The notes beneath the pieces were generated by a model that saw only the letters and a list, made by a program, of their open reading frames with translations, made no database searches and was not told where the DNA came from. Made by a program: the position numbers and the translations under genes. A stretch of DNA of 64,000 bases, taken from a virus. Positions 1,462 through 39,709 of this stretch are shown in pieces. Each line of letters starts with the position of its first letter. Within the stretch, counting starts at the first letter, position 1. The DNA is taken from the IMG/VR virus record IMGVR_UViG_3300023096_000001, positions 1 through 64,000 of that record. The stretch is one strand, 5' to 3'.

Positions 1462-2160
1462 CTAAATAACGATTCTTCTCGAGGATGAATTAACGTGAAC
1501 GTCTTCTTTTACTTCTGGGGCCTCTGTTCGATCATCTTCCCAACACTTCTGGTGAAGGTAAGTTGCAGGATCTTTCGGCTGTCTCCAGGAAGGTAGGGAT
1601 GCTTTGTAAATTGGAGCATCTTTAAATGCTAGTGCCTGTTCTTCGATAGTTAGTTTATTCCAGTTAAGTGCAGCTTTATTTTTGCCTATTTTGTGATTAT
1701 AGGCACTCCAAAAATCATCGAACGTTATATTTATTTCTTTATTAGTATTTATATTATTATATGTCGGATTTTTTTCCGAGCTACTTCCGGATTTTTTTCC
1801 GACTATAATCGGATTTATTTCCGAGTCTTCGGATTTTTTTCCGAGTTCTGTGCGCCTATTCCATGTTGTTCCTTTTTCAGTAAGGCACACATAATCTTGA
1901 AAACCAATTTTTTGAAGAGTTATAAGTCCCTTCTCTTCAAGGCGTTTATAATATCTGTAAACCGTGTCGGGTTTGTCTGTAAATAAAGGCAATTCTTCGC
2001 TTACTTTATGGCGAGAGGCAAAGTAATAATCAACGTTTTCAATCTGTTTTTTTGTTGCCCAAGACGGCAATGAATGCAACCAAGCAAATATATACGCTTC
2101 TTGTATTGTCAATCCCCACTCGTAAGCGTGAATGTTGTCGATAGTTACAGAATAAGTCAT
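1462..2160 (-). CDS. Replication initiation / helicase-loader-like protein
   Basis: 232 aa. The N-terminal ~80 residues look like a winged helix (LPLFTDKPDTVYRYYKRLEEKGL) of the replisome-organiser type. The C-terminus has the FW..Y...GK..A...W..L pattern and a PATYLHQKCWED motif, common in the C-terminal domain of DnaD/DnaT-like phage replication proteins that load DnaB-type helicases. A serine/asparagine-rich linker with repeated KKS..SE units (about 95-140) joins the halves. It sits immediately before the primase-helicase. A hairpin with a T-run lies 14 nt upstream of the start, suggesting premature termination controls expression. The loader role is inferred from architecture and position. 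Confidence 0.75.
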   Translation of the reverse strand: MTYSVTIDNIHAYEWGLTIQEAYIFAWLHSLPSWATKKQIENVDYYFASRHKVSEELPLFTDKPDTVYRYYKRLEEKGLITLQKIGFQDYVCLTEKGTTWNRRTELGKKSEDSEINPIIVGKKSGSSSEKNPTYNNINTNKEINITFDDFWSAYNHKIGKNKAALNWNKLTIEEQALAFKDAPIYKASLPSWRQPKDPATYLHQKCWEDDRTEAPEVKEDVHVNSSSRRIVI

Positions 2161-9537: not shown

Positions 9538-9843
9538 TTATACTTCTTTTGAATGTCCTGTTTTATCTTCTACATGCTGCTTACTGTAACTACTATAATA
9601 CTGACAACCCTCCTTGCGGATGATACTCTTCGGAGAGATGTACCCTTCTGGGTTGATCCTGGCAACTTCTACCTTTCCATCAGGGTTTACTTCAAAAATT
9701 TGCCGAAAGCTCCCGTCTACCATCAATGCGCCAAGGGTTGCCATGTAGCAAGTTAAATCCTTCAGCGTTTCTTTGTCGCGGCGCTTGATGTTGATGTAAT
9801 TGTTGGCTTGACGCGCTGAAAGAATTTGGGGGAAAGTTCTCAT
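9538..9843 (-). CDS. Hypothetical protein, 101 aa
   Basis: Starts MRTFPQILSARQANNYI. Contains a beta-rich centre with EVNPDGKVEVARINPEGYI and a basic C-terminus. No family recognised. It overlaps the HNH-like gene by 4 nt. Confidence 0.65.
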   Translation of the reverse strand: MRTFPQILSARQANNYINIKRRDKETLKDLTCYMATLGALMVDGSFRQIFEVNPDGKVEVARINPEGYISPKSIIRKEGCQYYSSYSKQHVEDKTGHSKEV

Positions 9844-10370
9844 GGTTTATCCTTTAAAGATTCATAATAAGCAATGTGCGCTTCGCGAGTGTCAAGCAGC
9901 TCCATTGTGTCGATTCGGCGGTACATGAAACGCTCCTGATCGTAAACAATGTATCTGTGAAGTTTATTGTGTTCAGGCATTGTCAACTCAATTACGTCTT
10001 TATAGTGAGCTTCATTATAAGACCAATGATGAAGATGGTTCCCCTTTTCTTTTTTCATATTGCTTGTTGCATTGGTAGCTTTGGCCTTCTCTGGATATCT
10101 AGCTCTATATTGCTTAGTCCTATCCCTGGCTTCTTCCGGACTTTCTTTATGAATATCTTTATAACCAAGCCTATGATATTTTTCTCTCGCTCTAATAACC
10201 TCTTTTGCTACCCACTCAGGATTGTTTGCCCTTAAGTCCTTTTCACGAATATCTACATCGCGCTTTGTACAGTCTTTACATTTATTTAAATGACCATCAG
10301 CCATTTTTTTATGTTTGTAATAGTCACCTAGTGGCTTTACAATGTTACATTTGAAGCATTTCTTTTCCAT
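9840..10370 (-). CDS. HNH endonuclease-like protein
   Basis: 176 aa from the ATG at 10370, which gives the typical start MEKKCFKCNIVKPLGDYYKH; an upstream start would add 13 unrelated residues. The N-terminal CxxC and CKDC form a zinc finger common in phage HNH proteins. The C-terminal core NHLHHWSYNEAHYKD, followed by MPEHNKLHR, supplies the His and Asn residues of an HNH site. It could be a free-standing homing-type nuclease between the SSB and replication genes. Confidence 0.75.
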   Translation of the reverse strand: MEKKCFKCNIVKPLGDYYKHKKMADGHLNKCKDCTKRDVDIREKDLRANNPEWVAKEVIRAREKYHRLGYKDIHKESPEEARDRTKQYRARYPEKAKATNATSNMKKEKGNHLHHWSYNEAHYKDVIELTMPEHNKLHRYIVYDQERFMYRRIDTMELLDTREAHIAYYESLKDKP

Positions 10371-11365: not shown

Positions 11366-11728
11366 TCAATTGGTTTCATTCAATTTAGCAATCAACGCGT
11401 CGGCATTCTCGACGGCCATCTTCGCATTGGATTCTGGATTGGATCCTCCGTAGTGAGAGATCAGTCCCTGCATCATCAAGGAGGCGAGGTGCGTGCGGAT
11501 GTCCAGGTGTTCTTGTTTTGGGTTAAAGATACCATCTTTGTCTGAAACCCACCATTGACTTTCTGCATCACTCTTTACTAATTTCCCCTCTACAGGAATA
11601 GCGTATGAAGGGTTTGATTTATTTTCCATATTTTTAGACCAATTTTTGTTTCTCTGACTTCTTTCCTCGTTTAGGCATTGTTGCAAAAAATGTTCTGAAA
11701 AGTTAACATCAGTAAGCTGTCTTTTCAT
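11366..11728 (-). CDS. Hypothetical protein, 120 aa
   Basis: Starts MKRQLTDVNFSEHFLQQCLNE. The C-terminal half has a GGSNPESNAKMAVENADALI helix resembling other small Bacteroidota phage proteins. No function assigned. It is the last gene of the run that begins with the excisionase-like protein at 16108. Confidence 0.68.
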   Translation of the reverse strand: MKRQLTDVNFSEHFLQQCLNEERSQRNKNWSKNMENKSNPSYAIPVEGKLVKSDAESQWWVSDKDGIFNPKQEHLDIRTHLASLMMQGLISHYGGSNPESNAKMAVENADALIAKLNETN

Positions 11729-11732
11729 TGCA

Positions 11733-12698
11733 TTAATTTATAAAGTTATATCCAGCATCCTTAATAACATCTTGTACGCATTTAACCTGCCCCGGTTCGA
11801 TTTTTACAAGATTCCAGTACTTGTCCCTCAACTCAAGAGATCCGTCTGGAAATATATTGAGCCAAGTGTTATAAACTCTATTTAAATCTATACTCACATA
11901 CTCAACTTTTCCGTCTTTCCAGCTTAAATTACTAAGCCCTCCTCGTCCATCAAAACACTTCCCGATAGAATCCCTTGTCATGCTGTCGTTACCCAAATCA
12001 GCAAGTCCTGATCGCTTAAAGAGAGGAAATTTATACCCTATACTGTTAAGCAGATCAAATACTGCGTTCTCATCGATAGCCCTTGGGCTATATGTAATAA
12101 TCTTTTTGTCTTGAAGGTTATTAATCGTGTCTTCTGAATACGTGCACCGACCATGACCTATCGTTAAACCCATGAGCTTCTTTTTTGGAGAGTGCATGAG
12201 TATTAAAATATTTTCCCCGGAAGACTCTTGCGCATCAAGATAAGTATTTCCAAGAAAATCACAAATCGCCAGTAGAGCTTCTTCGTCATATATAAGCCCT
12301 TTTGATAATTTTTTATCGGGCCAGGCGGGAGCTTCTTTAAACGGTTGTACTGGGTAATATTTGCTCGGGCTGAGTCTTTTATCCCATACTTGTTTAGATT
12401 CCTCTTGTGCTTTTTGCTCTTCCTCGCTGATGGGGTCTACAATCCTAAAATTATCGACTCCTAAGGCTTCTTTCACTTGCTGTGTGGTTACATAAGCAAC
12501 AGGTTTATAAACTTCTATGTCTTCAATTTTAACTAGCCTACAAAAAGCGCTATTTTGAGAATGAAGCGTTGCATGAACCAACTTATCATCCTCCTCGTCA
12601 TCTCTGTAATAAGCTCCGCCACCATATTGGCCGAAAATTAACACATCTTCGCGTCCTTTAATTTTAACTAAATCTCCGTTTTTAAATTTATTTTCCAT
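11733..12698 (-). CDS. Hypothetical protein with SH3-like N-terminus, 321 aa
   Basis: The N-terminus FKNGDLVKIKGREDVLIFGQYGG looks like a small beta barrel as in SH3/KOW-type modules. The rest is mixed alpha/beta with no catalytic motif I recognise. It may be a fusion, since residues 60-130 look like a linker rich in E and K. It overlaps the upstream gene by 1 nt (TAATG). Confidence 0.68.
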   Translation of the reverse strand: MENKFKNGDLVKIKGREDVLIFGQYGGGAYYRDDEEDDKLVHATLHSQNSAFCRLVKIEDIEVYKPVAYVTTQQVKEALGVDNFRIVDPISEEEQKAQEESKQVWDKRLSPSKYYPVQPFKEAPAWPDKKLSKGLIYDEEALLAICDFLGNTYLDAQESSGENILILMHSPKKKLMGLTIGHGRCTYSEDTINNLQDKKIITYSPRAIDENAVFDLLNSIGYKFPLFKRSGLADLGNDSMTRDSIGKCFDGRGGLSNLSWKDGKVEYVSIDLNRVYNTWLNIFPDGSLELRDKYWNLVKIEPGQVKCVQDVIKDAGYNFIN

Positions 12699-15159: not shown

Positions 15160-15942
15160 CTATCCTTGCTTTAACTTCAATTCTTGCTGCTTCTTTTTGC
15201 CGGGTTTGGACCAGGATAGATTTTCGTTTATTAAATGATTTAAAAATACTCTACCTTTCTCAGTCCAAACCATATAGTGCTCTGTATAAGTGACTCCTTC
15301 CGCAGTCGTATGCGGATGCGTCCTCGTCTCAATATAACCTTTCCCTGTGTAGTCGGCATAAAGCATATACCTGCCATTGCTTTTCTTGTATTGAATCCTT
15401 CTATTTACAAGTATTTTATTCAAGGCGATGGCTGATAGCCCCAACTCATTAGCGATCTCGGATGTTGTCATGGTTGTCTTTGAGGAGAGCACCACATCCA
15501 CATACTCCGCTTTTGGTGCCAGTATCGCATTTTCTTCTTCGAGTGCAATCACTTTCTTTTCTGCCTCAAGTGCCATCTCCAATATTTGTAACCTTGACAA
15601 CTCAGGCATAACTATTGAATGAGACTGAGAAGTCTGCTCTGTAATCAAATCCTCAATTCGATCTCTGAATTTTTTCGCTCTCTCAGATCTTATAAAGAAT
15701 CCCAACCGAATAAGTCCTCTCGCTGTCCAGTACGTAACTGATTGAGAACCACTGCTGTCAGTATTACTGACACTGATAAAGTGTTTATTTTCCACAAGCT
15801 CATCAGACTTGGTGCTTTTATGCTGCCTTATCGAGCTTTCGGAAACACCATATCCACATGCAACTGAAGCATTATCCAATAGTAATTGATGTACTGAGTG
15901 CTCTTTGGCAGAAAAAGTAACTCCTTCAAATTGAAATTCCAT
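15160..15942 (-). CDS. Phage antirepressor with KilAC domain
   Basis: 260 aa. Residues 1-100 form a BRO-N/antirepressor-like domain (GVSESSIRQHKSTKSDEL...KHFI). A short coiled coil spans about 115-145. The C-terminal KilAC domain begins at APKAEYVDVVL and contains TTSEIANELGLSAIALNKIL and a late TEKGRVFLNHLI. KilAC antirepressors counter phage repressors or control early genes. It follows 7 nt after the excisionase-like HTH gene, sharing the promoter at 16112-16141. It suggests regulated, possibly temperate, behaviour, though no repressor or integrase is visible here. Confidence 0.88.
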   Translation of the reverse strand: MEFQFEGVTFSAKEHSVHQLLLDNASVACGYGVSESSIRQHKSTKSDELVENKHFISVSNTDSSGSQSVTYWTARGLIRLGFFIRSERAKKFRDRIEDLITEQTSQSHSIVMPELSRLQILEMALEAEKKVIALEEENAILAPKAEYVDVVLSSKTTMTTSEIANELGLSAIALNKILVNRRIQYKKSNGRYMLYADYTGKGYIETRTHPHTTAEGVTYTEHYMVWTEKGRVFLNHLINENLSWSKPGKKKQQELKLKQG

Positions 15943-17578: not shown

Positions 17579-18541
17579 TTACTTTTTCTTGAAAACGTAT
17601 GCAGGTATTGAGCTTGTCAAATAAGTGACTGGAATTGTACCAGAGCTGAGGTAACGCAGATTCTGTACTTTCAATTGTTGCTTCGTGTACGTCTTCAAAT
17701 AGTTGACTCCCTTAGGAATTTCTAAATAATCCCTGTTTGGAAGTTTAAATTCAGACATCACCTCACGAACAATCATGTACCCGAATAAAAAAGCGCCTTT
17801 TAAAAAGCCAAAAGTTTCATCATGATAAAGATGGCGCTCTTTTTCGGGGATGATGACGTATTTTCGACGATACTCCATCAAGCCGGCTTTTTGCCAGATC
17901 TTTTTATACTTACGTCCTGTGGTCTCAGACTTTCTACCTGAATGCTTTGCAATGCCTTTATTTGATATACAAACTTGTCCTCGAGACTTCTTTCCGCCCT
18001 TAGCTTCATACGCGTCCAATTTCCTTTTCACGCCTGCGCCAAGGTCAAATTTCCCAGCTCTGTTTTTCAATGTTTCGAGTTCGAATTCCTTCTGGACATG
18101 TTTGTATACCATCTTCAGCACTGAAATTACTGAGATAGACCTTAATAGTATTTTCGTTTCGGCTAGTGTTTCTCCAGATGTTGCAGTGACACATTTGCCG
18201 GTTATAAAAACCCCTTTGGAAGGGTACAATTTATTCAGGGTTTTACTGCCTGACAGGAAAATGTGTCCGTCACGAAATTGGACGACTTTTTCTTCTGTCA
18301 GAATGTTTAAATGAAATTTCAAGGCATTCAAAGATATGCCCATCTTTTCAGCGAGCTGCCTCTTGGAGGTATTGTAAAGAATAGGGTGCTTGTAAAGCCT
18401 TCTCATTTGCACGTAATAAGCCAATGTCCCTAAGAGATTCTTGTTGTAGAAGTCAGTCCACATCATACAAGGCAGCTGAACATTCTTTTTAGAATGCTTT
18501 TCGGTTAATTGATTCTTTTTACGTTTTAGCTTTTTTAACAT
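17579..18541 (-). CDS. Two-HTH DNA-binding protein, candidate replication initiator or regulator
   Basis: 320 aa from the ATG at 18541, chosen over a GTG at 18553 because AGGGTGG lies at Shine-Dalgarno distance. The N-terminus is very basic. A first winged helix at about 55-95 reads SKRQLAEKMGISLNALKFHL and ends in a short wing; a second HTH-like part lies at about 195-225 (ISNKGIAKHSGRKSETTGRKY). The two-winged-helix layout is like plasmid/phage Rep proteins. The leader contains two interleaved 12-bp inverted repeats, one covering the Shine-Dalgarno-like site, and a perfect promoter (18696-18725). Initiator versus transcription factor cannot be decided from sequence alone. Confidence 0.75.
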   Translation of the reverse strand: MLKKLKRKKNQLTEKHSKKNVQLPCMMWTDFYNKNLLGTLAYYVQMRRLYKHPILYNTSKRQLAEKMGISLNALKFHLNILTEEKVVQFRDGHIFLSGSKTLNKLYPSKGVFITGKCVTATSGETLAETKILLRSISVISVLKMVYKHVQKEFELETLKNRAGKFDLGAGVKRKLDAYEAKGGKKSRGQVCISNKGIAKHSGRKSETTGRKYKKIWQKAGLMEYRRKYVIIPEKERHLYHDETFGFLKGAFLFGYMIVREVMSEFKLPNRDYLEIPKGVNYLKTYTKQQLKVQNLRYLSSGTIPVTYLTSSIPAYVFKKK

Positions 18542-18544
18542 AGC

Positions 18545-18692
18545 AAAAGCCACCCTAAGTAAGATTAAGCATTGAGTGAGTTTTGCGAAAACAATCAGAG
18601 CTAATCAGGGTGGCTTTTCAGATGCTGTAAATATGGGTGATCCGGTGATCCAGATGAAAAAGCTAATCTATTTACTCTAAATTGTTTTCGCA
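18545..18692 (-). promoter_or_regulatory. Interleaved inverted repeats, predicted RNA pseudoknot over start region
   Basis: Minus-strand order: TGCGAAAACAAT (18692-18681), AAAAGCCACCCT (18618-18607), ATTGTTTTCGCA (18595-18584), AGGGTGGCTTTT (18556-18545). Segments 1 and 3 pair perfectly over 12 bp, as do 2 and 4, so the stems interleave as in an H-type pseudoknot. Segment 4 contains the AGGGTGG in front of the ATG at 18541. The same repeats could also serve as DNA operators. Confidence 0.72.
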
Positions 18693-18695
18693 TTT

Positions 18696-18725
18696 CAAAT
18701 ATAATCAATACCGGCATACTTACAA
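18696..18725 (-). promoter_or_regulatory. Promoter for the two-HTH gene
   Basis: TTG (18725-18723), 19 nt, TATATTTG (18703-18696) on the minus strand: a perfect Bacteroidota promoter. Transcription should begin near 18690, at the first arm of the interleaved repeats, giving a leader of about 150 nt. Confidence 0.75.
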
Positions 18726-18734
18726 AAAATATTT

Positions 18735-18914
18735 TCAATACTCGTCAAGCTCCCTCCCTTCGCAGGATTCCCCTTCGAGAATATCCGCCAAAAACAGGGC
18801 TGCTGCAAAAAGTCCCAGTGCCAGGGTGAACCCTTCCCGTTGCTGTTCGAAGATGATCATCCCGAAAAGGGTCAGCGCGAAAAGGAGAAGCGAAAGGGGT
18901 TTTAGTAGTTTCAT
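18735..18914 (-). CDS. Small membrane protein, 59 aa
   Basis: ATG at 18914, overlapping the upstream stop as ATGA. Two hydrophobic segments (LLKPLSLLLFALTLFGMII; TLALGLFAAALFLADIL) and a short acidic tail. No family recognised. Last gene of a run of tiny overlapping membrane or basic proteins. Confidence 0.68.
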   Translation of the reverse strand: MKLLKPLSLLLFALTLFGMIIFEQQREGFTLALGLFAAALFLADILEGESCEGRELDEY

Positions 18915-39606: not shown

Positions 39607-39709
39607 AAAAAAAGCCCATTCAAAGGTGCATCTTCAAATGGGCGTGCTATAGGTCTGAACCGAAGCGCAATATTTATCTATCGAGATGCACCAAGAATGA
39701 TAAATACTG
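39607..39709 (-). ncRNA. Predicted small RNA with kissing-loop complementarity
   Basis: On the minus strand a perfect promoter (39716-39746) is followed by about 100 nt and an intrinsic terminator: GCCCATT/AATGGGC (39643-39637 with 39620-39614) then seven T (39613-39607). A second hairpin (39706-39699 with 39678-39671) precedes it. The loops of both hairpins contain mutually complementary 9-mers (39692-39684 and 39633-39625), so they could kiss. No ORF is convincing. Minus-strand placement between divergent operons suits a regulatory RNA. Confidence 0.66.

Follow-up and report, generated by a model that had tools for sequence, protein, structure and literature searches.

The leader of a minus-strand gene at about 18.5 kb of the window, i.e. 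the stretch of 64,000 nucleotides analysed here, can form an RNA pseudoknot that would gate in cis the expression of the gene behind it, a reading to which we assign a probability of about 0.5. That the pairing belongs to a real leader RNA is well supported by sequence comparison: the interleaved pairing proposed for the predicted transcript in an earlier sequence-only reading was found again at the syntenic site of a related phage and in a second, covarying leader pair of both phages. The window covers the initial 64 kb of G000, an IMG/VR-type virus record with 96,243 bases. crAss-like phages rank among the most abundant gut viruses, and judged from its structural proteins the phage is one of them. 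Its muzzle protein matches PF25731 (E 1.1e-53) and its large terminase is approximately 23% identical to those of Crassvirales phages.

The Bacteroidota-type promoter (TTTG ... TAnnTTTG) has eight perfect matches in the 96-kb record compared to about one expected. One of them, composed of TTTG (18726-18723), a 19-bp spacer and TATATTTG (18703-18696), heads the 18.5-kb leader. The TAnnTTTG box sits at -12 to -5 in Flavobacterium psychrophilum (PMC9723704), and the start of transcription predicted from this position, approximately 18691, falls within arm A (TGCGAAAACAAT, 18692-18681), the 5' end of the predicted transcript, as had been proposed. Arm B (AAAAGCCACCCT, 18618-18607) follows, then arm A' (ATTGTTTTCGCA, 18595-18584), which is the exact reverse complement of A and lies within the loop of hairpin B, and finally arm B' (AGGGTGGCTTTT, 18556-18545), the exact reverse complement of B, which ends 3 nt 5' of the ATG at 18541. 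With this order (A-B-A'-B') the two helices interleave, and the linkers of 62, 11 and 27 nt are those of an H-type pseudoknot architecture. All four arms of the two perfect 12-bp inverted repeats, the promoter and the ATG were confirmed by direct reading of the minus strand. The 24 bp in two perfect interleaved helices were reached in none of 2000 dinucleotide shuffles (shuffle maximum 20), and with B held fixed an equally strong A helix was obtained in 0.04-0.16% of the shuffles. No Rfam 15 covariance model matched the whole window or the leaders above the gathering score, and a DNA pattern for hairpin B had no match in IMG/VR. An invertible promoter was rejected by reasoning, as the promoter lies outside both repeats. 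Another perfect promoter (10406-10376, minus strand) is located immediately 5' of an HNH gene (9840-10370), with almost zero leader length.

In the pseudoknot-free minimum free energy fold, helix B is kept, an outer helix C is added and the AUG is taken in. The first part of C pairs AGCAT (18626-18622) with ATGTT (18541-18537), which is the start codon itself, and the second part pairs TTAGCTTTTT (18666-18657) perfectly with AAAAAGCTAA (18535-18526) just within the gene. This fold is better than those of shuffled sequences (z -3.2). The proposal that the gene start is hidden is borne out by the predicted accessibility of the region from -20 to +15, the third lowest of 137 genes of the phage; the corresponding start in the related phage, at rank 16 of 142, is hidden to a moderate degree only. 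The AGGGTGG in front of the ATG had been taken for a Shine-Dalgarno site. Such a signal was not found in either genome (1/83 and 1/82 genes, the same as in shuffles), and hiding of a Shine-Dalgarno site was rejected on this ground. Position -3 before the starts is dominated by A. Flavobacterium likewise has no Shine-Dalgarno signal and an A at -3, and initiation is tuned there by structure around the AUG (PMC6847099).

Nested folding of the growing transcript gives A:A' a probability of 0.95 once A' is made, and B takes over only once the RNA has passed the AUG. The same order, A:A' first and B later, is predicted for this leader and its syntenic counterpart in the related phage (class 1). The folds with A only and B only are 2.5 kcal/mol apart in the 18.5-kb leader. 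By linker lengths, a knotted state with both helices appears feasible, and under the usual penalty of approximately 9.6 kcal/mol (our own estimate) it would be roughly isoenergetic with B alone. In the cell, transcription from the TTTG/TATATTTG promoter would thus begin in or beside arm A, making A the 5' end of the RNA, and A would pair with A' as soon as the latter is made. Helix B, extended by the outer helix C in the 18.5-kb leader, would then form around A', where the two helices may coexist, and would close the start region, with the AUG of this leader lying in helix C. Translation, the presumed level of control, would stay low or delayed until some signal opened the fold or set it otherwise; the host phylum lacks Shine-Dalgarno sites, and initiation there is tuned by how open the region around the AUG is.

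The only close relative found was IMGVR_UViG_3300023181_000002 (G001), with a 77% identical portal protein and the gene order kept; searches via portal, terminase and neighbour genes gave only this record and a 4.9-kb fragment. Synteny is anchored by a membrane-like ORF of 59 aa upstream of the leader (18735-18914, minus strand), which shares 37% identity over 27 aa with its G001 homologue (E 5e-7 for a single comparison). Behind this homologue the promoter ATTATATTTGA is retained in G001, followed by an arm A (GTTGCGG, L003 11652-11658), an arm B (ATAGCTTTGTCC), a loop containing CCGCAAC, and B' (GGACAAAGCTAT). These helices of 7 and 12 bp were matched in none of 2000 shuffles, and, B given, an equally strong A was found in 0.8-1.6% of shuffles. 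Both helices differ in their letters between the two phages and no letters are common outside the promoter, so that the homology of this leader pair rests on position. The gene behind the leader differs as well: 15 nt past B' lies the ATG of an HNH endonuclease unrelated to the protein encoded in the window, and no relatives of the HNH gene carrying the leader were found. Covariation in the arms had been put forward as a check. The class-1 pair provides two unalignable sequences which both pair perfectly, while the positive answer comes from the second leader pair, where both partners have changed in 16 of the 32 pairs compared and no pair is broken.

The second leader (2305-2160, minus strand) and its partner in G001 (L004 9422-9570) have the promoter region and a 23-nt 3' tail in common. 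The promoter box TAAATTTG (2317-2310) predicts a transcription start at 2305, and exactly there a 5'-terminal hairpin begins (GCCT/AGGC, 2305-2292); its G001 equivalent (GGTC/GGCC) likewise starts at +1. The order of elements is the same in both: the 5'-terminal hairpin, a second hairpin, arm A and then helix B of 9 bp, which encloses a 1x1 mismatch, a 6-bp inner helix and a pair of hairpins; A' is displayed apically on the first of these. In the window, arm A (GACGAATA, 2265-2258) pairs with A' (2225-2218) in the apical loop of hairpin H1 (2231-2212). Helix B (CCCGAAGAG 2248-2240 with CTCTTCGGG 2189-2181) continues as the inner helix (2238-2233/2196-2191), and hairpin H2 occupies 2210-2200. 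Both phages thus have interleaved helices of 8 and 9 bp. The arm A pair of G001 (CTAGACAA/TTGTCTAG) has 5 of 8 pairs changed on both sides. Across the 32 helix pairs comparable between these two close genomes, which are the base of the comparison, 16 are changed on both sides, one on one side only and 15 are the same; H1 and H2 were excluded since their lengths differ, and that none is broken is partly by construction, the helices having been chosen for pairing. Pairing between the relatives is preserved by compensatory change. Arm A alone is not rare (6-11% of shuffles). What counts as evidence is that topology and lengths agree although many letters differ between the anchored flanks. With promoter and tail kept as well, the two second leaders are clearly homologous. 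The tail (GGGATTTTTTATGACTAAATTTT, 2183-2161), identical in G001, ends at the start codon of a replication initiation protein of 232 aa (1462-2160, minus strand; phrog_270, E 2.2e-14; phrog_428, E 1.4e-12), so that the AUG follows helix B and does not lie within it. In G001 an orphan and then a Lin1244_N/replication-initiation protein are encoded downstream.

Both leader pairs also lead a scan for interleaved helices ending near a start codon, which took in approximately 1500 possible starts from six genomes of crAss-like phages. The 18.5-kb leader ranked first (-43.9) and its syntenic counterpart second (-36.2), both with a TAnnTTTG promoter immediately upstream. The next-best starts of each genome, at 2160 in the window (-31.3) and 29571 in G001 (-29.9), are syntenic with each other; an entry at 18466 (-35.1) was left out, being a downstream in-frame ATG of the 18.5-kb gene that reuses arm B. 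When a descriptor was limited to hairpins with long loops, GC at the base and a U-rich tail, it gave six loci in 1.1 Mb of strand, which include the 18.5-kb leader and the second pair. In a scan of all positions, with opposite-strand duplicates and matches inside coding genes set aside, the best matches in each of two distantly related crAss-like phages lie beside genes predicted to encode tmRNA. Because tmRNA is a known pseudoknotted RNA, these matches are a positive control and show that RNAs of this kind are picked up by the scan. The tmRNA genes (L033 14087-14458 and L035 8344-8691) were predicted by ARAGORN and are asterisk-marked.

A candidate third leader is located upstream of the portal operon (39614-39692, plus strand). 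It consists of an A helix (GCCCATT 39614-39620/AATGGGC 39637-39643) interleaved with a B helix (GGTGCATCT 39625-39633/AGATGCACC 39684-39692), and an interleaved pair occupies the corresponding site of G001 (L007 9655-9518, minus strand). As a third syntenic leader pair the two are weaker and suggestive only.

The gene behind the 18.5-kb leader (17579-18541, minus strand) encodes an orphan of 320 aa with two winged-helix-like segments (approximately residues 57-92 and 189-235), and judged from these the product is probably DNA-binding. It had been described as Rep-like, for which the weak winged-helix matches, the only ones obtained, are no proof; it is the second leader that heads replication-initiation genes. 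Homologues were found neither in phage, plasmid, IMG/VR or GTDB contigs nor in 12 further phage records, and a single-sequence AlphaFold model was unusable (pLDDT 33).

The same design before different genes, together with a covarying version heading replication-initiation genes, points to a reusable operon-head device and not to an operator for one protein. Recurrence at operon heads with changed letters and cargo likewise speaks for a device acting at the RNA level rather than for DNA operators or autogenous control of the classical kind. More tentatively, a number of operons in this crAss-like lineage (those for replication, those with DNA-binding or endonuclease cargo, and possibly the structural one) might stand under one family of 5'-terminal pseudoknot RNAs, in which the shape is kept and the letters are not, acting independently of the gene behind; by switching between A-closed and B-closed states they would time expression in the course of infection.

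Among the alternatives, transcription attenuation comes first, a close rival of the favoured reading though less probable. Helix B would be the stem of an intrinsic terminator, and nascent A:A' pairing or a factor would decide between stop and readthrough. The second leaders fit this well: B ends with CCC/GGG, which are unchanging pairs, directly followed by A and six T (ATTTTTT) in both phages, and the inner helix forms first, so that B' could zip quickly. A U-rich stretch follows the GC-rich end of B in three of the four leaders, among them TATTTTGCTTTTT in the class-1 leader of G001; that of the 18.5-kb leader (TTTTGCT, 18548-18542) is a short one and meets the pattern of a GC-rich stem with a U-run only partly. 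Against attenuation, the loops of 23-54 nt are unusually long and far exceed those of usual terminators, the short U-run of the 18.5-kb leader reaches into the AUG, and a scan for canonical terminators does not report this leader. Since the AUG follows B after six U in the second leader, conditional termination is a close rival there, and it may be the common mechanism of the leaders; for the 18.5-kb leader, occlusion of the start codon by helices B and C is preferred.

An RNA acting close to the promoter on the polymerase or on mRNA life, either as a protector of the 5' end or by processive antitermination of the HK022 put or EAR type, is unlikely. It would agree with the position at operon heads with differing cargo, with a fold beginning at the very 5' end and with the possible third leader before the portal operon. 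The proximity of the AUG is left unexplained by it, and while put and EAR RNAs carry conserved sequence, the class-1 leaders have no sequence in common.

The pseudoknots of the plasmid initiator genes repZ/repA (IncB, IncI-alpha of ColIb-P9, IncL/M) also pair a loop with an outside strand in the leader of an initiator, and the second leader heads replication-initiation genes. In these plasmids, pseudoknot formation activates translation and is controlled by an antisense RNA and a leader peptide. A corresponding switch in the phage, with translation of a leader peptide opening the structure, the pseudoknot then activating translation and an antisense RNA as a brake, is very unlikely. An open frame does cross the leader of the window (ATG, 18693-18601, 30 codons, ending just past arm B), as does one in G001 (GTG, 11650-11757, 35 codons, with a stop overlapping the gene ATG). 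However, the ATG of the former lies 1-2 nt upstream of the predicted +1, frames this short can occur by chance and the two peptides are dissimilar. No promoter-consensus match on the opposite strand reads into or covers the 18.5-kb leader. In addition, the A strand is located upstream of the hairpin here and not downstream as in the plasmids.

That the repeats arose by chance and have no function is highly improbable: the absence of matches in 2000 shuffles for both genomes, the syntenic recurrence and the compensatory changes in the second leader speak against it. Operators in the DNA, bound by the encoded protein or by some other regulator and raised as an alternative in the sequence-only reading, are the least probable explanation. 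In their favour are the probable DNA binding of the gene product and the overlap of arm A with the start of transcription. Against them, 50-85 bp separate the two arms of a dyad, A and B have no common motif, neither the arms nor near-copies of them are significantly over-represented elsewhere in the window, G001 keeps the interleaving and not the letters, and the helices of the second leader begin with a hairpin at the predicted 5' end of the transcript.

Phage mRNAs rarely carry regulatory RNA pseudoknots. A device of this kind on the mRNA of a phage DNA-binding protein had been called new, which is not quite right, as it is preceded by the gene 32 leader of T4, T2 and RB69, likewise a 5' pseudoknot on the mRNA of a nucleic-acid-binding protein whose architecture outlasts its letters (PMC3014915, PMC535899). 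According to a review from 2010, this may be the only viral pseudoknot used for translation autoregulation (PMC3014915). In function, the gene 32 knot and the plasmid rep pseudoknots come closest to the leaders, which share some but not all of the defining features of either. The gene 32 knot comprises approximately 28 nt, lies 67 nt upstream of the AUG and nucleates binding of the gene product to an unstructured A/U-rich site. In contrast, the knot of the 18.5-kb leader spans approximately 150 nt and ends 3 nt before the ATG, leaving no unstructured A/U-rich stretch of more than 40 nt between knot and start, and the unrelated genes behind matching leaders argue against binding by the gene's own product. 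Competing folds around a start codon are also found in the phage lambda cIII mRNA, comparable to the A-only and B-only folds described above; its sequence is unrelated, and we know of no pseudoknot described for it. Structure likewise hides the initiation region of T4-type homing endonucleases (I-TevI, segB, Aeh1 mobE), a likeness to be seen beside the HNH endonuclease of G001. There the gene has its own late promoter inside the hairpin, by which the transcript escapes (PMC2988022), whereas the promoter at 18726-18696 is upstream of the whole fold. While there is thus precedent for a phage DNA-binding gene headed by a pseudoknot leader, the architecture, the changed cargo and the crAss-like setting appear new; in open-licence full-text literature, "crAss-like" and "pseudoknot" occurred together only in papers on group II introns. 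Shape-conserved, letter-free leaders at several operon heads would provide a testable handle on the timing of replication in hosts without Shine-Dalgarno sites, and such leaders would escape sequence-based RNA searches.

Several further features were observed in the two phages. In G001, an ORF in the operon (L003 10075-10908), which has no counterpart in the window, carries a CNMSCKFC-type radical-SAM motif recognized by eye. A hairpin at L003 15306-15398, with a stem of 13 bp in which G-U pairs are allowed, a loop of 67 nt, a U-run and 8 nt of complementarity between loop and upstream sequence, is a candidate of the same shape as the leaders. A conserved leader RNA of another type lies behind a perfect promoter at 20308-20028 (minus strand) and in G001 at L003 9344-9416. 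It forms a three-way junction with CCTG/CAGG at its closure and two hairpins, the loops of which (GCGT and ACGC) are complementary in both phages (kissing loops), while stem letters change from CCTC/GAGG to ATCT/AGAT between them. This leader had no Rfam match, and a pattern search of IMG/VR yielded only G001. Two copies of TATGAAATTATATGAA (20341-20281, minus strand) adjoin its promoter and are perhaps operator sites. A KilAC-type antirepressor (15160-15942, minus strand; PF03374, E 1.4e-28) is also encoded in the window, which suggests repressor control in this phage.
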